Shown one piece after another: positions 5,388-63,736 of a DNA stretch of 64,000 bases. The position numbers and the translations under genes were made by a program. How positions within the stretch are numbered: the first letter of the stretch is position 1; each line of letters begins with the position of its first letter. This DNA comes from Oscillospiraceae bacterium (GTDB lineage: Bacteria; Bacillota; Clostridia; Oscillospirales; Ruminococcaceae). The notes under the pieces were generated by a model, which was not told where the DNA came from, did not search any database, and was given only the letters and a program-made list of their open reading frames with translations. The stretch spans positions 1 through 64,000 of the forward strand of contig JAFRJM010000016.1 of NCBI GenBank assembly GCA_017432285.1, read 5' to 3'.

Positions 5388-7064
5388 ATGGCGTATTTGA
5401 CAGACATTGAGATCGCACAGGCATGCGAAAAAAGACCGATTACTGAAATCGCTGCAAAAGCAGGGATAGACGAGAAGTATCTTGAACAGTATGGCAAATA
5501 CAAAGCGAAAGTAGACTATCAGTTTTTAAAAGACCATGAATCAGACCCCAATGGAAAACTAATCCTTGTTACCGCTATAACTCCTACACCTGCCGGCGAG
5601 GGAAAGACCACAACTACCGTTGGCCTTGCCGATGGCCTAAACAAACTTGGAAAGAAAGGCATCGTCGCACTGCGTGAGCCTTCTCTCGGGCCCGTATTCG
5701 GCGTTAAGGGCGGAGCCGCAGGCGGCGGCTATGCACAGGTCGTTCCGATGGAAGATATCAACCTCCACTTTACCGGAGACTTCCACGCAATCGGTGCAGC
5801 AAATAACCTTTTGGCTGCTATGATTGACAACCATATCCAGCAGGGAAATCAGCTGGGAATCGACACAAGAAGGATCACATGGCACAGAGCGGTCGATATG
5901 AATGACCGTGCCTTGAGGAAGATCGTTATCGGACTTGGCGGAAGATCCGAAGGTGTACCTCGTGAAGACAGTTTCGATATTACAGTTGCTTCTGAGGTAA
6001 TGGCCGTTCTTTGCCTAGCTTCAGACATTACAGATCTCAAAGAGCGTCTTTCAAAGATAATCATTGGATACACATCAAGCAACAAACCTGTTACTGCAGG
6101 AGATCTGCACGCACAGGGCGCTATGGCAGCATTGCTGAAGGATGCTCTTAAGCCGAACCTGGTTCAGACACTGGAAGGAACGCCGGCGTTTGTCCATGGT
6201 GGGCCGTTTGCCAATATCGCTCATGGCTGCAACAGTGTTACGGCCACAAAGATGGCATTGAAGCTTGGAGAATATGTAGTAACTGAGGCTGGATTCGGCG
6301 CTGATCTCGGTGCTGAGAAGTTCCTGGACATAAAATGCAGGATGGCCGGACTCAGACCTGATGCAGTAGTTATCGTTGCAACTGTCCGCGCTCTCAAACT
6401 CCACGGCGGAGTAGCAAAAGACAATCTTGCTGAAGAAAACCTTGAGGCACTTGAGAAAGGCCTTCCCAACCTGCTTCAGCATGTAAAGAATATCACTGAA
6501 GTCTTCGGACTGCCTGCTGTTGTAGCAGTTAACAGATTCCCGACCGACACAGAAGCCGAACTGGATCTCGTCATTGAGAAATGCAAGGAACTCGGCGTGA
6601 ATGTAAGACTGTCTGAAGTCTGGGCTAAAGGCGGTGAAGGCGCCGTTGATCTGGCTGAAGAAGTGATTCGTTTGTGCGAAACTGAGAACCACTTTGAATT
6701 CAGCTATGAAGTCGAGGATTCTATCTCTGAGAAACTCAACAAAATAGCTACTAAGGTATATCATGCTGACGGAGTGGATTTCGTTGGGCAGACTTCGCGT
6801 CAGATGAAACAGCTGACTAAACTGGGATTTGGGGGACTGCCTATCTGTGTTGCGAAGACACAGTATTCATTCTCCGATGATGCCAGCAAACTCGGCGCTC
6901 CTACCAACTTCAGGATCACGGTCAGGGATCTTAAGGTATCTGCAGGTGCAGGATTCATTGTAGCTCTTACAGGGGATATCATGACTATGCCCGGATTGCC
7001 CAAGGTTCCTGCAGCAGAGAAGATCGATGTCGATGAAAACGGAGTAATTACAGGACTGTTCTAA
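5388..7064 (+). CDS. fhs: Formate-tetrahydrofolate ligase
   Basis: This 558-residue enzyme joins formate to tetrahydrofolate with ATP to make 10-formyl-THF, the entry step of folate one-carbon metabolism. Length and sequence match the family throughout, including the phosphate loop [13 protein letters not shown] (about 65-77), the [15 protein letters not shown] segment and [17 protein letters not shown] at 5348-5353 lies upstream, with only a poor -35 before it, and AGAAGGAG precedes the ATG. It heads a tight co-directional run with fchA, folD, folC, folT and a GH2 gene. No THF riboswitch is visible in the short leader. Confidence 0.97.
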
Positions 7065-7065
7065 A

Positions 7066-7683
7066 ATGGAAATGATAGAGTACAATCTTGATGAGTTTAC
7101 AGAAAAACTCGCATCACGAGAACCTGTGCCGGGCGGCGGCGGAGCCAGTGCACTTGTCGCTGCTTTGGGCATCGCACTGGGAAATATGGTCGGTTCACTT
7201 ACAGTCGGCAAAAAGAAATTTGCATCCATTGAGCCTCAGATGCTGGAATGGATGGATAAAGCAGAAGATATCAGGAAAAGAGCACTTGAACTGATAGACG
7301 GTGATGCTGAAGCGTTTTTGCCTCTTGCAGAGGTGTACCGTATGCCAAAGGATGATCCTGAGCGCGAAGAAAAAATGGAAGCAGCTTTATATAATGCTGC
7401 TTCTGTCCCGATGAAACTGCTGAAACTGTGCGGCGAAGCCATTGATCTGCTGTCATTGTTCGCGGACAACGGAAGCAAGCTGGCGATCTCGGATGCTGCT
7501 ACAGGAGCAGTGGCATGCAAGGCAGCGCTTGAAGGTGCATGGATCAACCTAAAGGTCAACACATCATCGTTCAAGAACAGGGAAGTTGCTCTGAAAATGG
7601 AAGAGGAAGCTCTTGCTGTGAAAGAGAAATATACTGCAGAAGCGGATTCGATTTATGAAAGAGTTATGAGGAGGATCGGATAA
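7066..7683 (+). CDS. fchA: Methenyl-THF cyclohydrolase / cyclodeaminase family (FchA-like)
   Basis: A 205-residue member of the formiminotransferase-cyclodeaminase/FchA family. The N-terminal glycine-rich segment PVPGGGGASALVAALG (about 21-36) is the family signature. Next to fhs and folD the likely reaction is interconversion of 5,10-methenyl-THF and 10-formyl-THF, as in acetogens and purinolytic clostridia; formimino-THF cyclodeaminase activity is the alternative. It begins one base after the fhs stop and overlaps folD by one base (TAATG), so the three are coupled. The FolD here seems to lack its own cyclohydrolase lysine, which supports the cyclohydrolase role. Confidence 0.85.
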   Translation: MEMIEYNLDEFTEKLASREPVPGGGGASALVAALGIALGNMVGSLTVGKKKFASIEPQMLEWMDKAEDIRKRALELIDGDAEAFLPLAEVYRMPKDDPEREEKMEAALYNAASVPMKLLKLCGEAIDLLSLFADNGSKLAISDAATGAVACKAALEGAWINLKVNTSSFKNREVALKMEEEALAVKEKYTAEADSIYERVMRRIG

Positions 7684-8543
7684 TGTCTACTTTATTGAAA
7701 GGAGCTCCGGTAGCTTCCGCAATAAATGAAAAAATGAAGGAGACTGTAGCGATTCTTCGTGAGCAGTCTATTGTGCCGACTTTGGCTATTGTACGAGTCG
7801 GTGAGAGGCCTGATGACCTCAGTTATGAACGCGGAGCCATGAAACGCTGTGCGTCGGTCGGAGTCGAAGTGAGAAACGTAGTTTTCCCGGAAGACGTAAG
7901 CAAGGAAGAGTTTTACGATGGTATCGACAAACTGAATAAAGATGATTCTGTTCATGGAATTCTGGTGTTCAGACCTGTACCAAAACATTTGGATAATGAC
8001 AGAGTAAGGAATGCTATCGTTCCGGAGAAGGATGTCGATGGCTGCACAGATGGATCGCTCGCAGGCGTGTTCACCAATACTGAACTGGGATTTACACCGT
8101 GCACTGCGCAGGCAGTAATGGAAGTCCTTTCTTATTACGATATAGACTGCACCGGCAAGGAAGCGGCTGTGATCGGAAGATCCCTGGTTGTTGGAAGACC
8201 TCTTGCTATGCTGCTGATGCATAAGAATGCCACAGTCACTGTCTGTCACACCAGAACAAAAGATGTGGCGAAACACACCAAAGAAGCTGATATTCTGGTC
8301 GTATGCTCCGGCCAGATGGAGTCATTTGGTGAAGAGTATGTCAGACCCGGCCAGACCGTCCTGGATGTCGGCATCAGCTGGAACGAAGAAAAACAGAAAC
8401 TGTGCGGAGACGTAAAGTTTGATGAAGTGTCTCCTATAGTTGACGCCATTACTCCTGTTCCGGGAGGTATTGGTTCTGTTACTACCAGTGTTCTTGTATC
8501 ACACGTAGTGGAATCCGCAAAGAGGATGGCAGATCGGTCATAG
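7683..8543 (+). CDS. folD: Methylene-THF dehydrogenase (FolD)
   Basis: A 286-residue FolD with the usual two domains and the signatures DGILVFRPVPKHL (109-121 region), VIGRSLVVGRPLAMLL and the C-terminal ITPVPGGIGSVTTSVL. It should oxidise 5,10-methylene-THF to methenyl-THF with NAD(P). In bifunctional FolD the active site reads YxxxKxK. Here the same place is Y48-E-R-G-A52-M-K54, so the first lysine, needed for cyclohydrolase activity, is alanine. The enzyme may therefore be a dehydrogenase only, with FchA next door doing the second step. That division of labour is inferred. Confidence 0.95.
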   Translation: MSTLLKGAPVASAINEKMKETVAILREQSIVPTLAIVRVGERPDDLSYERGAMKRCASVGVEVRNVVFPEDVSKEEFYDGIDKLNKDDSVHGILVFRPVPKHLDNDRVRNAIVPEKDVDGCTDGSLAGVFTNTELGFTPCTAQAVMEVLSYYDIDCTGKEAAVIGRSLVVGRPLAMLLMHKNATVTVCHTRTKDVAKHTKEADILVVCSGQMESFGEEYVRPGQTVLDVGISWNEEKQKLCGDVKFDEVSPIVDAITPVPGGIGSVTTSVLVSHVVESAKRMADRS

Positions 8544-8553
8544 GGTACTATAA

Positions 8554-9831
8554 ATGAATATTCAGGAAGTAAATGTTTTTTTAGACAACTATACCCAGCC
8601 GTATAAGCATCTCGGGCTTCACCGCATGAAGGCAATAATGGAGCTTCTTGGAGATCCTCAGAAGAAGATGCATTTCGTCCATGTGGCAGGGACAAACGGA
8701 AAAGGAAGCTGCTCGGCAATGACTGAGAGCATCCTTCGCCATGCCGGTTACAGGACAGGGTTGTTTACGTCACCGCATTTGATCCGTTTCAATGAGCGCA
8801 TGCAGGTATGCGGTGTACAGATCACAGACGACGAGCTGGCTGAGATAATGACTGAAGTGGTCGCTGCAAACGACCAGCTTGAAGAAAAGGTCAACTGGTT
8901 TGAGATCGTGACTGCTGCAGGACTTCTGTGGTTCTATAAACAAAAATGCGATATCGTCGTATTGGAAGTCGGTGTCGGCGGTGAATTTGACGGCACCAAT
9001 GTTATAGACGTACCTGATGTAGCTGTCATGATGAATATAGGTCTCGATCACACGGGACAGCTTGGAGACACTGTAGAGAAGATAGCTACGACCAAGTCCA
9101 AAATAATTAAAGAAAATGGCACAGCGGTAATATACCGCGGCAAGGAATCTGTGGAGAAAGTCATTGAAGACAGATGCGCAGAGGTTAATGCCAGATTGGT
9201 AAAAGCGGATTTTGACAGTATAGTTCTTGTGTCAGAAAACAGTTTCCAGCAGACGTTCGACGTAGGGGAGAGGAAAAACATCCAGATCCCGCTCATCGGG
9301 GAACATCAGAGGAAGAATACGTCTGTGGTCTTGTCGGTAATTGATGTGCTAAGAGAAAAAGGCTTTGAGATCTCAGAAGAAGATGTCTATGAGGGATTGA
9401 AGAACGTTACATGGCCTGCCAGGATGCAGGTGCTACAGAAGGATCCGCTGTTTATTCTTGACGGCGGCCATAATCCTCAGTGCGTTGAAGCAGTGATGGC
9501 AAGTCTTGATGACCTTGTGAGCAGTGGTCAGAAGCTTGTTTTCATGAGCGGGATCTTGAAAGGCAAGGATGCCGATGAGATGATAAAGTCTCTCAGTGAG
9601 CAGAGCAAGGACTTCGTATTCGTAGCTCCGGAAACACATCGTGCTCAGACAGCGGATGACCTGTCTGCTATCGCATTGGCTTTCGGATGTAACACCACAG
9701 TTTGCAGTTCTGTGCCCGAAGCGATACAGACCTCAATATCTCTTGCAGGTACTGACGGAATCGTATGTTGTGTAGGTTCTTTGTATCTTGCAGGTGAAGT
9801 ATTAGACTATTTTTATGGACGCGCATTTTGA
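8554..9831 (+). CDS. folC: Folylpolyglutamate synthase / dihydrofolate synthase
   Basis: A 425-residue Mur-ligase-type enzyme that adds glutamate to folates, keeping them in the cell. The P-loop HVAGTNGKGS (about 43-52), TSPHLIRFNERM and the C-terminal LDGGHNPQ segment are all present. It follows folD by 10 bases in the folate operon. Because the operon also carries a folate-uptake S component, polyglutamation of imported folate is the likely main task. Confidence 0.95.
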   Translation: MNIQEVNVFLDNYTQPYKHLGLHRMKAIMELLGDPQKKMHFVHVAGTNGKGSCSAMTESILRHAGYRTGLFTSPHLIRFNERMQVCGVQITDDELAEIMTEVVAANDQLEEKVNWFEIVTAAGLLWFYKQKCDIVVLEVGVGGEFDGTNVIDVPDVAVMMNIGLDHTGQLGDTVEKIATTKSKIIKENGTAVIYRGKESVEKVIEDRCAEVNARLVKADFDSIVLVSENSFQQTFDVGERKNIQIPLIGEHQRKNTSVVLSVIDVLREKGFEISEEDVYEGLKNVTWPARMQVLQKDPLFILDGGHNPQCVEAVMASLDDLVSSGQKLVFMSGILKGKDADEMIKSLSEQSKDFVFVAPETHRAQTADDLSAIALAFGCNTTVCSSVPEAIQTSISLAGTDGIVCCVGSLYLAGEVLDYFYGRAF

Positions 9832-9845
9832 TTTAGGAGACAGAA

Positions 9846-10361
9846 ATGAAAACACGTAGAATTGTACTTATTGGATTACTTGTAGCGATGTATGTCGTTC
9901 TGAGTTTGTTTCTTACGGTTACCCTGTGGAATTTCAAGATAACCTTTGAAGCACTTCCAATACTTGTAGGAGCATTTTTGCTTGGACCGGTAGATGGACT
10001 GCTTATCGGATTTCTCGGAAGCTTCCTGAATCAGATGCTTACATATGGATTCACACCCACTACACTTCTCTGGGTGCTTCCTCATGCTTTCAGCGGACTG
10101 CTTGTTGGTTTTTTGGCAAAACGCCTGAAGGGTGAATTAACAGTAAAGAATGTAGCTGTTATCACTGTTATAAGCGCGCTGTGCGTTACAGCTCTGAACA
10201 CACTTGCCATGTATGTAGACAGCAAGATGTTTGGCTATTATTCAAAGGCATTCGTATTCGGTGCTTTAGGAGTACGTATCATAACAGGAATCGCGACTGC
10301 TGTGGCATTTGCCTTGATTTTGCCCACACTGCTGACACAGTTGAAAAAGATATTTAATTAA
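9846..10361 (+). CDS. folT: ECF transporter S component, probably folate-specific
   Basis: A 171-residue membrane protein with about six hydrophobic segments. The segment VLSLFLTVTLWNFKITFEALPILVGAFLLGP follows the ECF S-component pattern of a short helix, a conserved loop and GAFLLGPVDGLLIG. S components bind the vitamin and share an energizing EcfAA'T module encoded elsewhere; none is in this window. Its place 14 bases after folC and before GH2 in the folate operon makes folate the likely substrate. The family call is firm; the substrate is inferred from neighbours. Confidence 0.85.
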   Translation: MKTRRIVLIGLLVAMYVVLSLFLTVTLWNFKITFEALPILVGAFLLGPVDGLLIGFLGSFLNQMLTYGFTPTTLLWVLPHAFSGLLVGFLAKRLKGELTVKNVAVITVISALCVTALNTLAMYVDSKMFGYYSKAFVFGALGVRIITGIATAVAFALILPTLLTQLKKIFN

Positions 10362-10375
10362 GTAGGAGATACCAA

Positions 10376-12700
10376 ATGCTGTCTTTGAACAACGGCTGGG
10401 AGTTCACCCCCGAATGGAATGAGGACTTTCTTCATTTCCGCACGAGGGAAGAGAAGGTGCGCCTTCCCCACAATGTGAAAGAGGAGCCGCTTCACTACAT
10501 CGATCATAAGAGCTATGAGATGATCAGCGGGTACCGCAAAAAGGTCACGATCCCCATGGCAGCCGAAGGCAAGAGAGTATTCATCTGTTTTGAAGGTGCT
10601 GCTCATATTGCAACAGTATATGTCAACGGTGAAGAGAAACTGACACATCTGGGAGGATATACTGCGTTCGAGGTTGAACTTACTTCCTACGCGACGGCAG
10701 GAGATACCTTTGAGGTTGCGGTGAAGCTTGACAGCACCGAGAATCCTACGATCCCTCCATTCGGGTATGTAATAGATTATCTCACCTACGGAGGTATATA
10801 CCGGCCAGTATGGATGGATATCAGGGAGCGGGATTATATAACCGATGTTTTTGTTACCACTCCGGACCTTAAGACAGCTGTAGTGCGTTTTGAGACAAAC
10901 AAAAGCACGACTTTGGAGAAGACAGTCAGGATCCTGGACGATGACGGCGGTATTCTTGCTCAGGCATCAACGCTGAGTTCAGAAGTGACACTGGATGTCT
11001 TTGAAGCAAAGCCGTGGGATCTTGAGAGTCCTAATCTGTACAGATGTGTCGTGTCATTGGAGAATGGCGGAGAAAAAACAGTTTGGTTCGGATTCAGGAC
11101 CGCAGTGTTCAAAGCAGATGGATTTTATCTGAATGGCAAGAAGACATTCCTGCGCGGACTTGACCGCCATCAGAGCTATCCCTATGTAGGGTATGCGGTC
11201 CCTGACAGCCTTCAGGTCGAAGATGCAAGGATACTCAAGGAGGAGCTGGCCTGCACCGCAGTCCGCACTTCGCACTATCCCCAGTCTCAGTCTTTCATAG
11301 ATGCATGCGACCGTTTGGGCCTTCTTGTCTTTACTGAGATCCCCGGGTGGCAGCACATCGGAGATGAAGATTGGAAAGATGTAGCCTGCAAACAGGTCGA
11401 GGAGATGGTCCTTCAGTACAGGAACCATCCGTCCATCGTGCTCTGGGGCGTAAGAATAAATGAGAGCCAGGACGACGATGCTTTCTATGAAAGGACGAAC
11501 CGTATAGCTCATGAGCTGGATCCCAGCAGACAGACTTCCGGCGTCAGGTATCTTAAGAAAAGCCATCTGCTGGAAGATGTATATGCGTTCAACGACTTTA
11601 CTCATTCAGGGGACAACGAGCCTATCACGGTAAAGTCAAAAGTCACTCCCGACATGTCGAAAGGACTTCTTATCTCAGAGGCTAACGGACACATGTTCCC
11701 GACAAAATCCTTTGACAAATCCGAAGTGAGGCAGGAACATGCGCTTCGTCATGCACGAGTCATGAACGCCGCGATGGGAACTGGTGAACATGCCGGATGT
11801 TTCGAGTGGTGCATGTTCGATTATCCTACTCACAAGGACTTTGGTTCCGGAGACAGAGTATGTTATCACGGCGTGATGGACGCGTTCCGCAACCCGAAAC
11901 TGGCAGCAAGTGTCTATGCTATGCAGGGCGATGATAATCCGGTCCTGGAGGTCGGGTCATCGATGGACATCGGGGATTATCCGGGAGGAATGCTGAAAGA
12001 TGTATATGTTTTCTCCAACGGTGATTCGGTAAAGCTCTATAAGAACGGGGCTTTTGTAAGTGAATTTACCAAGACAGATTTTACTGCTCTTCCTCATGGC
12101 CCTATGCTGGTGGATGACACGATAGGTGACCTTCTGCGTTCGCAGGAAGGATTTACCGGAAACAAGGAAAAACTGCTGCATGATTGTCTGCTCTCCGCTT
12201 CACGGAACGGCGCTAACGGAATGCCGATAAAGGACCTGCTGAAGATGGGCTGGGCTATGCTCAGATATCACCTGACCTACAGTGAGGGCGTGGATCTGTA
12301 TGGGAAATATGTAGGAAACTGGGGCGGTGAAGCTACAGTCTGGCGATTCGACAGTATTAAAGACGGCAATGTTGTATGTTCAAAAACGTTATGCCCGTCT
12401 GCAGATCTCCATATTGAAGCGAAAACGAGCACGGATGTCCTGACCGAAGGTGATACATATGATATGGCTGCTGTGCGCATTCGTATCATGAACGAATACG
12501 GCAATGTGGCTAGTTATGCACAGCTTCCGATATCTTTCCGCACCGAAGGGGAGATAGAACTTGTAGGCCCAAAAGCAGCGTGTGCCGAAGGCGGTATGAC
12601 TGGAACGTATGTCAGGACCACAGGGAATAAAGGAACTGGCAAACTGTTTATCGAAGCGCCTGGCCTGGATCCGGTCGTTCTTGATTTCAGAGTGAAATAA
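10376..12700 (+). CDS. Glycoside hydrolase family 2 protein
   Basis: A 774-residue GH2 enzyme (beta-galactosidase, beta-glucuronidase and beta-mannosidase family). It has an N-terminal jelly-roll (about 1-160), an immunoglobulin-like domain (to about 240), a TIM barrel, and C-terminal beta domains from about 530. In the barrel the acid/base glutamate is Glu363 in VLWGVRINES and the likely nucleophile is Glu435 in LLISEANGHMF. There is no signal peptide, so it acts in the cytoplasm. The substrate cannot be read from the sequence. It follows folT by 14 bases with its own GTAGGAGATACC site, an unusual partner for folate genes. Confidence 0.9.
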   Translation: MLSLNNGWEFTPEWNEDFLHFRTREEKVRLPHNVKEEPLHYIDHKSYEMISGYRKKVTIPMAAEGKRVFICFEGAAHIATVYVNGEEKLTHLGGYTAFEVELTSYATAGDTFEVAVKLDSTENPTIPPFGYVIDYLTYGGIYRPVWMDIRERDYITDVFVTTPDLKTAVVRFETNKSTTLEKTVRILDDDGGILAQASTLSSEVTLDVFEAKPWDLESPNLYRCVVSLENGGEKTVWFGFRTAVFKADGFYLNGKKTFLRGLDRHQSYPYVGYAVPDSLQVEDARILKEELACTAVRTSHYPQSQSFIDACDRLGLLVFTEIPGWQHIGDEDWKDVACKQVEEMVLQYRNHPSIVLWGVRINESQDDDAFYERTNRIAHELDPSRQTSGVRYLKKSHLLEDVYAFNDFTHSGDNEPITVKSKVTPDMSKGLLISEANGHMFPTKSFDKSEVRQEHALRHARVMNAAMGTGEHAGCFEWCMFDYPTHKDFGSGDRVCYHGVMDAFRNPKLAASVYAMQGDDNPVLEVGSSMDIGDYPGGMLKDVYVFSNGDSVKLYKNGAFVSEFTKTDFTALPHGPMLVDDTIGDLLRSQEGFTGNKEKLLHDCLLSASRNGANGMPIKDLLKMGWAMLRYHLTYSEGVDLYGKYVGNWGGEATVWRFDSIKDGNVVCSKTLCPSADLHIEAKTSTDVLTEGDTYDMAAVRIRIMNEYGNVASYAQLPISFRTEGEIELVGPKAACAEGGMTGTYVRTTGNKGTGKLFIEAPGLDPVVLDFRVK

Positions 12701-56353: not shown

Positions 56354-57907
56354 TTGCGGGACGGTCTGTTCAAACAGTATTTTTTGATTTTTATGGTAAC
56401 GCTGCTCACGTGTACAGCGCTGCTTGGTCTTGCTCTGCTTGCTTTTACGGGAGTCAACTATTCATCCCAGAAGCAGCAGATGCTTGCCGGAATCGTTGAG
56501 AATGCTATAGCACTGACAGAAAAGTCATGGTCTTCGAACGGACTTACCGGATCGCTGGTTTCTTCATTAGGCGCACGTCCCAGTGATGCTTCAGATACAT
56601 GCATATATGTGACTGATGTCTCTGGAAAGATACTGGAATGTTCCGAAGACGAATGCCACCATGGCGAGAGAGCACCTGAACACGCTGTAGACCAGATACG
56701 TAAGGATGGATCCTATTTTTCTGCGAGTTATTTTTCAGGTCTGTTCAGGAACAACGGAGACTATGTATATGGCGCAGCTATCAGGCGCAACGATATTATA
56801 GCCGGGTATCTGTTTGCGACTACGCCAGTCGGGCCTTTGTTCTCATATCTTTATGAGACATTGTTCAGCTATCTGTTTTCTGCTGGTGTTATGATGCTCG
56901 GTGCATTCGTGGTCATTTATACGACTACATTGCGTCTTACTGCTCCTTTGCAGGAGATGAGCAAAGCAGCCGAAAGTTTTGGACGTGGTGATTTCTCCGC
57001 CAGGATCAATGTCACCGGAAACGATGAGATCGCTGTTTTGGCGGATTCCTTCAATAAAATGGCAGAATCTCTGGACGAGTTTGAACAAAACCGCAGATCA
57101 TTTGTAGCTAACGTTTCTCATGACCTGAGGACCCCTATGACAACGATAGGAGGATATATCGACGGAATACTGGACGGTACGATCCCCAAAGAGGATGAAA
57201 GGCGTTATCTTGAGATAGTTTCCGAAGAGGTCAAGCGGCTCTCACGTCTTACATCATCGTTGATTTCCGCCATGCGCGTGGAGGAACAGAAACAGGATGT
57301 CAATCTTGTGTCTGTTGATGCATGGGATCTTATACTCAACATTATGTTCAATCTCGAGGGAAGGATCGAGGAAAAGAAACTTTATGTTCCGGACTTTGAG
57401 ACTGAAGAACTGTATGTCAGCGCAGACAAAGATATGCTGCATCAGGTGGTCTACAACCTCATTGATAACGCAGTGAAGTATACGCCGGTAGGCGGTGAAC
57501 TGCTTGTTACTGCTAAGAAAGACGGGAAATATGCTCTTATCTCTGTTCAGAACAGCGGAAATGGTATATCGCCTGAAGAACAGCCGTTTATTTTCGAAAG
57601 ATTCTATAAGACTGACAAGTCAAGAGGTCTTGATAAATCCGGAACCGGGCTGGGACTGTATATCGTAAAGATGCTCACAACGGGTATGGGAGGGGACGTC
57701 TCTGTAGAAAGTGACGGTGAAAGCTACACAAAGTTTACTGTACGGCTTTTGCAGGCATCAGCTCCTGTGGAGAAGGTGCAGAAAGAGAAGAGCCACAGAG
57801 AGAAACCCAGTAAAGAAAGCAAAAACAAAGAAAATACTATTTCTTTCTGGATCCCATGGAACAGAGTGAAGGAAGCAAAAGAACAAAAAGAGCAAAATGA
57901 TGCATAA
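56354..57907 (+). CDS. Sensor histidine kinase (HAMP, HisKA, HATPase)
   Basis: A 517-residue kinase: helix 1 (about 10-32), an extracellular sensor domain to about 165 with the pair Cys96/Cys101, helix 2 (about 172-192), HAMP (to about 245), HisKA with His256 in VANVSHDLRTPM, and HATPase (N-box NLIDNAVKYTP, G-box GTGLGLYIVK). The last ~50 residues are a Lys/Glu-rich tail. Start is TTG 56354, nine bases after GAGGTG in the regulator's last codons. Confidence 0.95.
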   Translation: MRDGLFKQYFLIFMVTLLTCTALLGLALLAFTGVNYSSQKQQMLAGIVENAIALTEKSWSSNGLTGSLVSSLGARPSDASDTCIYVTDVSGKILECSEDECHHGERAPEHAVDQIRKDGSYFSASYFSGLFRNNGDYVYGAAIRRNDIIAGYLFATTPVGPLFSYLYETLFSYLFSAGVMMLGAFVVIYTTTLRLTAPLQEMSKAAESFGRGDFSARINVTGNDEIAVLADSFNKMAESLDEFEQNRRSFVANVSHDLRTPMTTIGGYIDGILDGTIPKEDERRYLEIVSEEVKRLSRLTSSLISAMRVEEQKQDVNLVSVDAWDLILNIMFNLEGRIEEKKLYVPDFETEELYVSADKDMLHQVVYNLIDNAVKYTPVGGELLVTAKKDGKYALISVQNSGNGISPEEQPFIFERFYKTDKSRGLDKSGTGLGLYIVKMLTTGMGGDVSVESDGESYTKFTVRLLQASAPVEKVQKEKSHREKPSKESKNKENTISFWIPWNRVKEAKEQKEQNDA

Positions 57908-60756: not shown

Positions 60757-60785
60757 GAAGTGTACTTTAAAGTGCACTTCATTTT
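60757..60785 (+). terminator. Palindromic hairpin after the ATPase gene
   Basis: GAAGTGTACTTT (60757-60768) faces AAAGTGCACTTC (60769-60780) with a G-T pair, followed by ATTTTT. It looks like the ATPase terminator, yet it immediately follows the -10 box of the next promoter, so the new transcript would begin within it. Confidence 0.65.
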
Positions 60786-60804: not shown

Positions 60805-61476
60805 ATGAGTCTGATCTGTCCGTCTGTTTTGTCTGCAGATTTTTCCAAGCTAGGCGCAGAAGTGGAAGATGTTCTCAACGGAGGAGCGGACTGGATCCAT
60901 TACGATGTAATGGACGGACGTTTTGTCCCCAATATCTCCATAGGCATTCCTGTGCTGAAAAGCCTCTCAAAGGCAGTAAAAGCTTTTTATGATGTGCATC
61001 TTATGATAGAGGAGCCTCACCGCTATATTGCCGGTTTTGCCAAAGCGGGAGCGGACATGATATCTTTTCATGTTGAAGCCGAGGAGGATTGCTCAGGTAC
61101 ATTGGACCTTATTCACTCTTATGGCATAAAAGCCGGTATTGTAGTAAAGCCCAATACTCCTGCAGAAGAAGTGTTCCCGTACCTGGACAAGACTGACATG
61201 GTCCTTGTTATGACAGTGGAACCGGGGTTCGGCGGACAGAAGTACATGGCCGACATGTGCCCAAAGATCCGCGCTATACGCGATGAGGCGAAACGAATCG
61301 GAAAAGAAGATCTTCTGATCGAAGTGGACGGAGGGATTGCATCAGACACGGTAGGATTTACCGCCGCAGCCGGAGCGAACGTGTTTGTCGCAGGAAGTTC
61401 TGTTTTTGGAAAGAAAGACCGTGCAGCGGCTATTGAGAGCATTCGCAATGCCGCTGATGCTGCACTGGTTCAGTGA
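60805..61476 (+). CDS. rpe: Ribulose-phosphate 3-epimerase
   Basis: A 223-residue TIM-barrel enzyme interconverting ribulose 5-phosphate and xylulose 5-phosphate. CPSVLSADFSKLGAEV, HYDVMDGRFVPNISIG, VHLMIEEPHRYI, VMTVEPGFGGQKY and EVDGGI are all present. GGGAGGGAACGCAA precedes ATG 60805. The Rnf-like genes start 5 bases after its stop, so they share the transcript. Confidence 0.96.
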   Translation: MSLICPSVLSADFSKLGAEVEDVLNGGADWIHYDVMDGRFVPNISIGIPVLKSLSKAVKAFYDVHLMIEEPHRYIAGFAKAGADMISFHVEAEEDCSGTLDLIHSYGIKAGIVVKPNTPAEEVFPYLDKTDMVLVMTVEPGFGGQKYMADMCPKIRAIRDEAKRIGKEDLLIEVDGGIASDTVGFTAAAGANVFVAGSSVFGKKDRAAAIESIRNAADAALVQ

Positions 61477-61481
61477 GTTAT

Positions 61482-62435
61482 ATGAAGGAAACAACAGTAA
61501 GAAAAACTACATTGCACCCAAGTTTCAGACCATTCAGAGACTACCTGGTCACTATGGTGCCGTTGGTTCTGCTCGCGACCTATGTGTATGGGTTGCGTGT
61601 TGTTGTTATGCTCGCGATTGCAACTGCCACATCCTCGCTCTGTGACCTTCTGGTAGCTGCACTGAGGGGAAGACATATCCGTCTTTCAGATATCTCCAGT
61701 TTTTGCTTTGCATGGACTGTAACGCTTATGCTGCCGGTCTCAGTTTCATACAGCGTGGTCATTTTTGCAGTATGTGCTACGCTGCTTCTTGGGAAACATC
61801 CTTTTGGAGGTTTTGGAAACTATCCGCTGCATCCTGCAGCATTTGGTTTTGCTTTGACTGCAATAAGCTTTTCTGATCAGGTGTTTATGTATCCTCTCAA
61901 ACCTGCAAGGCTTGGACTTGGATGGAAATTGGATATAGCTTTGTACCAGTCTCCTGCAGGTATCCTGCATGATGGCGGTGTTCCTCTGGTGGACAGAACA
62001 GATCTTATTCTGGGAAATTTCACCGGAGCGGTCGGAGGAACCTTCTGCCTGATCATTTTTGCGTGTTTGTTCCTTCTGATAATGCACAGAGCTGTGTGCT
62101 GGCAGATACCTGTATTTTATCTGGCTACCTGCGCAGCTTGGGCATTTTTCCTTCCTAGGATCCCTGCTGCAAAGGAAGATTCAGTTTTGTTTGAGATGTT
62201 CTGCTGCGGTATCCCGTATGCAGCGTCTTACCTTGTTGCAGAAGTTACTTTGATTCCCCAAAAACCGGTTGCAAGATGTCTGTATGGCATTGTCGCCGGG
62301 GTTTTGACCATGCTTATCTCTACATACGGCATATATGAAATAGGCGCTCCATTTGCAGTCTTGCTGGCTACTCCTATCGGATACTGGCTTGACCGCCTTC
62401 TTTCCAAGCGCAGAGAGGAGGTAAAGAATGGCTAG
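61482..62435 (+). CDS. RnfD/NqrB-like membrane protein without the FMN-attachment threonine
   Basis: A 317-residue polytopic membrane protein with about nine helices. Family marks are FGGFGNYPLHPAAFG (about 108-122) and TDLILGNFTGAVGGT (about 173-187). In RnfD an FMN is bound to a threonine in a (S/T)-x-A-T-P stretch before the second mark. Here that place reads ALYQSPAGIL, so serine (about residue 157) replaces the threonine. ATG 61482 follows the rpe stop by 5 bases; a GTG at 61473 is the other possible start. It overlaps the RnfE-like gene by 8 bases. Redox function is doubtful. Confidence 0.75.
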   Translation: MKETTVRKTTLHPSFRPFRDYLVTMVPLVLLATYVYGLRVVVMLAIATATSSLCDLLVAALRGRHIRLSDISSFCFAWTVTLMLPVSVSYSVVIFAVCATLLLGKHPFGGFGNYPLHPAAFGFALTAISFSDQVFMYPLKPARLGLGWKLDIALYQSPAGILHDGGVPLVDRTDLILGNFTGAVGGTFCLIIFACLFLLIMHRAVCWQIPVFYLATCAAWAFFLPRIPAAKEDSVLFEMFCCGIPYAASYLVAEVTLIPQKPVARCLYGIVAGVLTMLISTYGIYEIGAPFAVLLATPIGYWLDRLLSKRREEVKNG

Positions 62436-63093
62436 AGCTAACAGAAAAGTGCGCGCCAAAGGCCGTTTGGCCAGGAACGCCAGGGAGACCCAAGCAACAG
62501 ATTACTTCTTCTTTAACAATGCTGTTCTGGTTCAGGGGTATGCCATGGCGCCGCTGATAAGCGGAGCAATTAACCTTCGCTCAGCAACAATACTTGCCTT
62601 GGCAGGTATCATTCTGATCATTCCTATCGGCGTTCTCGGTGAGGTTCTTACAGGTGTTCTTAATAAGCATCTCAGGTTAGGTATCTGTGTATTTGTCACA
62701 TCTATCCTTATCATTCCGGAAATGGTCGTGCTTTACAGAGTATTTGGGGGAGATGCAATAATCATCGGACTTTATCTGCCTTTGTTGTTTGTGGAACGGA
62801 TAATCACGTTCAGAGCAACTGATGAAGTCAGGGAAGGCTTCCTCCGTTCACTCAACAGAAGTTTAAGTCTTGCTTTAGGCTATGCTCTTGTTATGCTGGC
62901 CTGCGGTGCCTTGAGAGAGGTGCTGGGAGCGGGCACTTTATGGGGGACCTCATTATCTATGAAACCTTTGTGGCCGGCGGCGAGTACTGCTCCTGCGGGT
63001 CTGATCATAGTTGCTTTGTTTGCCGCATTTTGGAATCTTATATGCAGATTCTTTAGGAGAATGCTCTTTACAGAGGAGGATCTCAATGATTGA
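62428..63093 (+). CDS. RnfE/NqrD-like membrane protein without the Fe-S cysteines
   Basis: A 221-residue protein with about six helices. ALREVLGAGTLWG (about 161-173) is the RnfE/NqrD signature near the end. In RnfE two cysteines, in GLCP of the first half and VNC of the second, hold half of an intramembrane [2Fe-2S] cluster. The corresponding places read YAMAPL (about 39-43) and FVERII (about 121-126), so both are lost. An extra basic N-terminus of ~25 residues precedes helix 1. GAGAGGAGG lies before the ATG. It overlaps both neighbours by 8 bases. Confidence 0.75.
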   Translation: MARANRKVRAKGRLARNARETQATDYFFFNNAVLVQGYAMAPLISGAINLRSATILALAGIILIIPIGVLGEVLTGVLNKHLRLGICVFVTSILIIPEMVVLYRVFGGDAIIIGLYLPLLFVERIITFRATDEVREGFLRSLNRSLSLALGYALVMLACGALREVLGAGTLWGTSLSMKPLWPAASTAPAGLIIVALFAAFWNLICRFFRRMLFTEEDLND

Positions 63094-63736
63094 CGGACTG
63101 TTTGAAGGAATTATGGAATTTGCCGTTATCGCTTTCGGTGCGGCCACTCTTCAGAATCTGCTTCTCACCCGTATGCTGGGAGGAGATCACGTTCCAAGAC
63201 AGAGCTCTCTGGTAGCGGAGCGGGTTTTCTGCATATCGCAGGCGATCTGCACTTTCCTGAGCTCTATCGGATTCTGGCTTGTACATAATTATCTTCTTCC
63301 TCAGGTGTCTCTGCTGGAGAGGTTCGGGATTTCTCCTTATTATGCCAGAGCATATCTGTGGCCGTTCTGCGCATCACTTGTCTGTGTTTTGATCTACTTT
63401 GTTCTTTACAGCCTGGCGCAGGAAATACTTAAATCTGACTTGTCCAAACGTGTTCGCAGACAGTTGCCGTATGCTTGTTTCAACAGCTTTGTGTGCGCTG
63501 TGCTTTTCCGCGCAGCAGCTAATGATTACGACTTGGCCAGAATGCTGGCTTTTGCGGTAGGAAGCGCTATTGGCTATTATCTTGCAGACCTTCTGATATG
63601 GGAGGGGAAGCAGAAGATGGAGAAAGCGGATATCCCTGAGGCTTTCAGGGGAATGCCTGCTGTTCTTTTATATATAGCTGGCCTTGTTATGGCGTTCTAT
63701 GCGCTGGCGGGCAGGGGAGTTGTCACACTTCTTTGA
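63086..63736 (+). CDS. RnfA/NqrE-like membrane protein without the Fe-S cysteines
   Basis: A 216-residue protein with about six helices. The first helix, IAFGAATLQNLLLTRMLG, follows the RnfA pattern VNNFVLSRFLG, and RRQLPYACFNSFVCAVL (from about 124) corresponds to the second conserved helix. RnfA carries LGLCP and TNC there; this protein has LGGDH (about 31-35) and FNS (132-134), though Cys131 and Cys137 are close by. GAGGAGGATCTCA precedes ATG 63086, and its first 8 bases overlap the RnfE-like gene. Assigning RnfA rather than a second RnfE copy is by pattern only. Confidence 0.65.
   Translation: MIDGLFEGIMEFAVIAFGAATLQNLLLTRMLGGDHVPRQSSLVAERVFCISQAICTFLSSIGFWLVHNYLLPQVSLLERFGISPYYARAYLWPFCASLVCVLIYFVLYSLAQEILKSDLSKRVRRQLPYACFNSFVCAVLFRAAANDYDLARMLAFAVGSAIGYYLADLLIWEGKQKMEKADIPEAFRGMPAVLLYIAGLVMAFYALAGRGVVTLL

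Follow-up and report, generated by a model that had tools for sequence, protein, structure and literature searches.

The systems closest to the locus presented here are the Rnf complex (RnfABCDGE) and the Na+-NQR, whose membrane subunits RnfD, RnfE and RnfA or NqrB, NqrD and NqrE are homologous to the three membrane proteins of the locus. The ion route in Rnf and Nqr is under debate and is placed either in RnfD or in the RnfA-E pair (PMC12174285, PMC11889175). RnfD and NqrB are related to ammonium/urea transporters, and RnfA-E are described as an alternating-access pair that opens to either side around the cluster; no structural homologue is given for RnfA-E (PMC12174285). The nearest variant that we met in the literature is the two-subunit Nqr/Rnf-like complex. 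It likewise has an RnfD/NqrB-like membrane domain that lacks the covalent FMN site, but it carries a fused NAD-binding domain, has a flavinylated RnfG-like partner and consists of only two apparent subunits without E and A, whereas the genes studied here keep E and A and are without G (PMC11334425).

Here, we analysed a stretch of 64,000 nucleotides from an Oscillospiraceae bacterium (contig JAFRJM010000016.1 of assembly GCA_017432285.1, positions 1 to 64,000), which is called the window. A preliminary description had pointed to a trio of RnfD-, RnfE- and RnfA-like genes in it, named D', E' and A' in the following. In the titles and abstract beginnings that were covered, with most subscription journals outside the coverage, we recognised no description of such a D-E-A trio.

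Gene order and family assignment in the window

The trio is encoded on the forward strand, directly downstream of rpe for ribulose-phosphate 3-epimerase (60805..61476, forward strand; PF00834, E 1.9e-73). The start of rpe at the ATG at 60805 is our choice; the listed open reading frame begins at the GTG at 60760. The end of rpe at 61476 lies 5 bases before the ATG of D' (61482..62435), an RnfD/NqrB-like membrane protein of 317 amino acids. This is followed by E' (62428..63093), an RnfE/NqrD-like membrane protein of 221 residues, and A' (63086..63736), an RnfA/NqrE-like membrane protein of 216 residues. D' overlaps with E', and E' with A', by 8 bases each, as had been described. An AGGAGG stretch was found upstream of E' and of A', and no obvious AGGAGG-like stretch was seen ahead of D'.

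The membership in the RnfD, RnfE and RnfA families was confirmed, since D' matched PF03116 (E 1.3e-46) and both E' (E 5.1e-15) and A' (E 8.1e-11) matched PF02508, all above the curated Pfam cut-offs. The top NCBIfam matches were rnfD for D', rnfE for E' and rnfA for A', with 110.6, 45.3 and 44.7 bits, far below the respective cut-offs of 207.05, 213.4 and 229.3 bits. The trio differs from the Na+-NQR in that the best Nqr profiles scored below the best Rnf profiles for all three proteins and in that its cluster cysteines are gone; NqrC and NqrF were not noticed. The best PDB match of D' was the RnfD chain 7zc6_D (E 3.6e-14). The hydropathy plots gave five segments each for D', E' and A' at the threshold used, which is too crude for a topology.

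The draft genome of the host has 2.13 Mb and is 54.6% complete, and the trio is located on a contig of 104,442 bases. The order of this genome we take to be Oscillospirales, by its GTDB name. The nearest named relatives by D' identity include an Oscillospiraceae MAG from roe deer jejunum (73%) and an uncultured Faecalibacterium MAG (67%).

The genes rnfC, rnfG and rnfB had not been noticed on either side of the trio. When the contig was searched from 60000 to 76000, which extends to 12.3 kb past A', neither rnfC nor rnfG gave a profile match, and the idea that these two subunits lie just outside the window was therefore rejected. No rnfB was seen by eye in the same region, nor in the open reading frames back to 56354. 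Downstream of the trio follow an M24-peptidase-like gene, a gene for a 1237-residue coiled-coil-like protein, a membrane protein gene and a large open reading frame, which we read as pyruvate:ferredoxin oxidoreductase (PFOR). In the locus L033 (4725-9325), an open reading frame for a 1237-residue coiled-coil-like protein and then a 296-residue membrane protein, which had no NCBIfam match, lie between the trio and a PFOR-like gene. Two genes ahead of rpe, a sensor kinase was read in the window at 56354-57907. In three loci of one genus (L036, L037 and L049), the genes upstream of rpe were read as those of a two-component system and an HtrA-type protease.

A conserved locus in related genomes

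The E' protein was searched in 197 genomes of the order and found a match in 161 of them. Among the best 30 loci, 15 were of the cysteine-less type, including the window, and 15 were canonical. The search with D' gave a match in 136 of 148 genomes of the family; by our count, 95 genomes reached E 1e-30, so that the trio type would be present in roughly this number or more. We then inspected the gene content of 57 trio loci (4 to 17 kb each), all from the window's order. The order rpe-D-E-A, for which a search in other genomes had been proposed, was recovered in these related loci as rpe-(mecA)-(RnfC-like)-D-E-A-(DUF4015), with the variable genes in brackets. With our own profiles, rpe, D and E were detected in 57/57 loci, always with rpe preceding D, and A was detected in 56, the exception stopping at a contig end. 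Ahead of D, a mecA-like gene in reverse orientation is present in 26 loci and an RnfC-like gene in 22, and a DUF4015 gene follows A in 44; some of the other 13 loci end at contig ends. The neighbours rpe, mecA and DUF4015 point to no pathway.

An rnfG was detected in none of the 57 loci with a profile built from one sequence, which found G in 23/24 and in 7/13 non-trio loci, some of the six missed loci being incomplete. The trio thus resembles the Rnf complex in its homologous membrane subunits and, in 22 of the 57 loci, in an RnfC-like partner, but differs from it by the undetected rnfG, by the order D-E-A beside rpe and often by the DUF4015 gene. RnfC of the Rnf complex has an NADH/FMN site and two 4Fe-4S clusters. 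No such protein was found at the window locus, whereas the 22 RnfC-like proteins of the relatives all keep the eight 4Fe-4S cysteines, with the GGAGFPT stretch lost or altered. Cofactor-bearing rnfC, rnfG and rnfB genes just beyond the window, which had been named as a possible objection, are thus partly matched in the relatives by the RnfC-like gene, but in the window neither rnfC nor rnfG was matched.

When four DUF4015 proteins were tested, all exceeded the Pfam cut-off. One aspartate and one tryptophan, at positions 198 and 219 in the protein of L042, are conserved in 98% of 46 sequences. Judged by its sequence, the DUF4015 protein appears to resemble RnfG in its architecture, with a single membrane helix at the N-terminus and an outer domain.

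Another 20 loci were taken from the weak end of the D' matches. They included 14 trios, 13 of them with rpe; the other six were one C-D-E set split from A, two lone D genes and three loci of the canonical type. A class-wide search in 291 genomes gave a match in 209, and the best 30 loci were six trios, including the window, one mixed locus and 23 canonical loci. All six trios among these best 30 belong to the window's own order.

Cofactor positions of the trio

The cofactor sites were assigned by alignment to the solved Rnf chains 7zc6 D, E and A, and to 8ahx A for the first RnfA cysteine. The counts refer to 65 distinct trio loci, or 64 for A since L046 ends at a contig end without it; four duplicate copies of loci (L124, L125, L126 and L133) were omitted. 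In the window, the replacements that had been read by eye were recovered. The FMN threonine of RnfD is a serine (D' Ser157, codon at 61950..61952). The two cluster cysteines of RnfE are an alanine (E' Ala41, 62548..62550) and an arginine (E' Arg124, 62797..62799), where Glu123 ahead of it replaces an asparagine, and those of RnfA are an aspartate (A' Asp34, 63185..63187) and a serine (A' Ser134, 63485..63487), all codons being on the forward strand. None of the conserved cysteines or the threonine was therefore found at these cofactor positions of the window trio.

The same was largely observed in the relatives. At the FMN position, the 65 D' proteins have serine (33), glycine (18), threonine (4), alanine (4), isoleucine (3), leucine (2) or asparagine (1). 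Cysteine is present in 0/65 at either site of E' and in 0/64 at the first site of A', but is kept in 31/64 at the second site of A'. The 14 further trios had no cysteine (0/14) at either E' site or at the first A' site. For a yardstick, 13 non-trio loci were aligned in the same way. They have the FMN threonine in 9/13, the first and second cysteine of E in 10/11 and 8/11 and those of A in 8/10 and 9/10, the missing residues being confined to a few distant loci. Chance or misalignment was rejected as a cause, as the motif windows in the 65 loci concur with the solved chains. In the E' alignment, cysteine stays below 40% in every column. Column 270 of the A' alignment, which is not a cluster site, has cysteine in 53% of the trio, and cysteines are common in several D' columns, up to 74% in one. 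As far as these alignments tell, the known electron path across the membrane is gone from the trio. Fd:NAD activity was abolished in variants of the A. woodii Rnf from which the cluster cysteines had been removed (PMC11889175), so a cluster-less core would hardly be able to pump by the redox route.

N123 and D249 are riboflavin ligands of A. woodii RnfD (PMC11889175). In the window, these positions are occupied by His117 (61830..61832, forward strand) and Glu254 (62241..62243, forward strand) and appear altered rather than plainly erased. In the 65 trio loci, the first position is N in 38, H in 22, S in 4 and D in 1, and the second is D in 40, E in 20 and another residue in 5, such that the riboflavin site may persist in a part of the clade. 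Since these ligands are kept in many D' proteins and the RnfC-like gene present in 22/57 loci encodes both 4Fe-4S motifs, the view that the trio had lost every cofactor site was too strong, and a residual redox role is possible.

We also analysed the residues for which a role in the Na+ path of A. woodii has been proposed. RnfA E88 and Q85 are kept in 0/64 trio A' proteins and T111 is replaced by phenylalanine in 55/64, which disfavours a leftover Na+ pump. RnfE E115 is kept in 39/65 and is a threonine in the window, and the path residues R67 (54/65) and N112 (60/64) are mostly retained. RnfD was argued to take no part in Na+ transport (PMC11889175), which weakens a transport role for D'.

Phylogeny and selection

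A tree of the joined D, E and A sequences separated 60 trio rows from 25 others across one branch with an SH-aLRT support of 100. The tree is unrooted and was calculated by a quick method. It omitted L046, the near-copies or short sequences L037, L039, L048 and L089, and the non-trio loci L139, L140 and L144. On this tree, the trio sequences form a single group that is distinct from canonical Rnf. Together with the profile matches and the wide spread of canonical Rnf, the tree argues that the trio was derived from Rnf. By parsimony on this tree, the distribution of the RnfC-like gene requires at least four changes, and so does that of DUF4015. The subclade of the window comprises 10 rows, and neither the RnfC-like nor the DUF4015 gene was found at the locus in any of them; DUF4015 also had no match anywhere in the assemblies of the window genome and six others of its subclade.

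The dN/dS ratios were determined by the Nei-Gojobori method for 14 locus pairs. In 35 of the 42 D, E and A comparisons, the values were between 0.04 and 0.26, and seven comparisons were saturated. The trio genes are under purifying selection.

Canonical Rnf, RnfC and the small genomes

In 16 of 20 chosen genomes, four PF02508 genes were found, consisting of the trio pair and a second pair of 185-238 bits that was taken for canonical Rnf. When the second pair was opened in two genomes (G170 and G191), the gene order was C-D-G-E-A. Only the trio pair was found in the window genome (a 54.6% complete draft), in its two nearest relatives and in G237, which is 89% complete. ApbE matches were obtained in all 20 genomes, one of them a fragment.

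The window genome has one RnfC above the cut-off, on contig 3. At 6939-10554 of this locus (L145), we read a fusion of a MetV-like protein to RnfC (693 residues), followed by MetV-like and MetF genes; by this reading, it is a methylene-THF reductase cluster that includes an RnfC2-type subunit. The trio accounts for all Rnf membrane genes that were found in this draft of 54.6% completeness. Two RnfC-like matches in other genomes adjoin, by reading, propanediol-type microcompartment genes.

Two small genomes (0.7 and 0.9 Mb, 97% complete) encode D', E' and A' at three separate places. All four cluster cysteines are absent, and the riboflavin-ligand positions are still N and D. Apart from E' and A', PF02508 was matched in neither genome up to E 1, and DUF4015 gave no match; for RnfC, one genome had no match and the other a single unconvincing one of 17 bits. 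In a genome of 1.0 Mb, mecA-C-D-E are on one contig and rpe-A on another. Since all three genes were retained after the operon had broken up, the data suggest that D', E' and A' work together and matter. Scattered D', E' and A' genes were noted in genomes of only 0.7-1.0 Mb from the same family (L182, L192, L193, L199-L201, L211 and L212). The gene after A' in the two smallest of them (0.7 and 0.9 Mb) encodes a lipoprotein-like protein of about 480 residues.

A non-redox reading and its alternatives

We give a probability of roughly one half to the reading that, in the trio, an Rnf core has become a non-redox module for transport or trans-membrane signalling. The preliminary description had proposed a non-redox Rnf membrane core serving as a channel, transporter or scaffold. 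The clade-wide loss of the cysteines, the purifying selection and the rnfG count of 0/57 bear out the part on an Rnf-derived core that would be unable to pass electrons through the membrane along the known path, whereas the channel, transporter or scaffold went further than these data. The sequences themselves show which sites are lost, how the trio groups, in which order its genes lie, that they are under selection and that tiny genomes retain them; we infer that the three proteins form one complex, that it changes its conformation and that something crosses the membrane, and any name given to the latter would be conjecture.

By this proposal, an Rnf operon would have been duplicated in the ancestry of the Oscillospirales. 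The duplicate would have lost rnfG, apparently rnfB, and the intramembrane [2Fe-2S] cluster, and in most lineages also the covalent FMN site. What remained would be a D'E'A' membrane set with the signatures of the Rnf core. In its fullest form, the set would work with the cytosolic RnfC-like partner and with the DUF4015 protein, which may stand in the place of RnfG, and in the subclade of the window the module would have been cut down to D'E'A' alone. The A'/E' pair, which in Rnf is alternately open to the two sides, would now act without electrons, and so would the ammonium/urea-transporter-like D'. By analogy, such a core has the parts that could serve gated transport or pass on a conformational signal. 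The likeness of D' to the ammonium/urea transporter fold comes solely via its kinship with RnfD (PMC12174285). In the gut bacteria that conserve it, the trio probably serves to move something, or to pass a signal, through the membrane independently of electrons. More tentatively, D'E'A' may be a stand-alone transporter family of this order, with the redox control by the RnfC-like protein and the DUF4015 arm being droppable as in the window lineage. If so, a membrane core of Rnf/Nqr would work without any electron carrier and would be needed enough to survive in genomes of 0.7 Mb.

Rather improbable, to our judgement, is a redox sensor facing the cytoplasm, in which electrons pass only between the 4Fe-4S clusters of the RnfC-like protein and the riboflavin in D' and gate the membrane part or the DUF4015 protein; in the window subclade, the partner would then have been lost and the membrane part alone kept. 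Such a sensor agrees with the complete set of FeS cysteines in 22/22 RnfC-like proteins, though their GGAGFPT stretch is altered. It also agrees with the riboflavin-site asparagine, which was found in 22/22 loci with the RnfC-like gene versus 16/43 without it (Fisher 3.4e-7 before the correction for kinship). After this correction, however, one to four independent pairs are left, too few for a test, and the link between the RnfC-like gene and the asparagine fails. In the riboflavin-site comparison, 8 of the 13 non-trio loci served as canonical; L136, L137, L139, L140 and L144, some of which are also without cluster cysteines, were left out. Moreover, an RnfC-like partner was found neither in the window, nor in its nearest kin, nor in the two smallest genomes, the latter two of which keep N and D. 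A scaffold or assembly platform in the membrane for an envelope process, with the DUF4015 protein and its putative glycosyl hydrolase domain as the working part, is unlikely. It would account for the DUF4015 gene after A' in 44/57 loci and for the 98% conserved aspartate and tryptophan, but the set does not need DUF4015, which had no match in the assemblies of the window genome and of nine other genomes that keep D'E'A'. Much of the data behind the non-redox module would also be compatible with a scaffold or a sensor.

That the trio is still a redox-driven Rnf pump, using other cluster ligands or subunits encoded elsewhere, we regard as very unlikely. One of the four cluster cysteines is kept in 31/64 A' proteins, the cysteine-rich columns of A' (53%) and D' (up to 74%) might offer ligands, and ApbE is matched in 20/20 genomes, once as a fragment. 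No column of E' reaches 40% cysteine, though, and rnfG was detected in 0/57 loci. In addition, the sole RnfC above the cut-off in the window genome belongs to the cluster read as MetV-RnfC2-MetV-MetF, and absences from this 54.6% complete genome weigh little. Hardly credible is a decaying Rnf remnant on its way to pseudogenes. The high divergence, the uneven loss of sites and the locus L043, in which E' has only a short open reading frame of 134 residues, would suit it. Against decay stand the open frames in many genera and the retention in genomes of 0.7-1.0 Mb, and because dN/dS is at most 0.26 in the 35 finite comparisons, pseudogenes were rejected as a general account.

If the non-redox module is the right reading, the trio would be a natural core with both parts of the debated ion route but no electron path, and would let one ask what the core does without electrons and which of its residues selection still holds. 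For annotation, it is a warning that genes carrying the names of the Rnf subunits A, D and E do not necessarily indicate an electron-driven pump in the Oscillospirales.

A possible salt bridge at the former cluster sites, and Rnf-like loci with altered sites

A salt bridge in place of the cluster, formed by the acid before the second cysteine site of E' and a base after the first cysteine site of A', was considered. The base is present in 31/33 loci with the acid versus 16/31 without it (Fisher 1.5e-4 before the correction for kinship). Corrected for kinship, one independent pair was left; the acid arose once on the tree, and coevolution is not claimed.

Altered cluster sites were also observed in Rnf-like loci apart from the trio. 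The locus L154 (genome G018, of the same order and another family) has rnfG and keeps the first RnfE cysteine; the second is replaced by glycine, and the first RnfA site is not aligned to a cysteine. It is a possible intermediate or a separate case of erosion. In two proteobacterial MAGs (L136 and L137), Rnf-like A-C-D-E genes with several cluster cysteines missing form a long branch inside the non-trio set, perhaps a second, independent loss of the cysteines.
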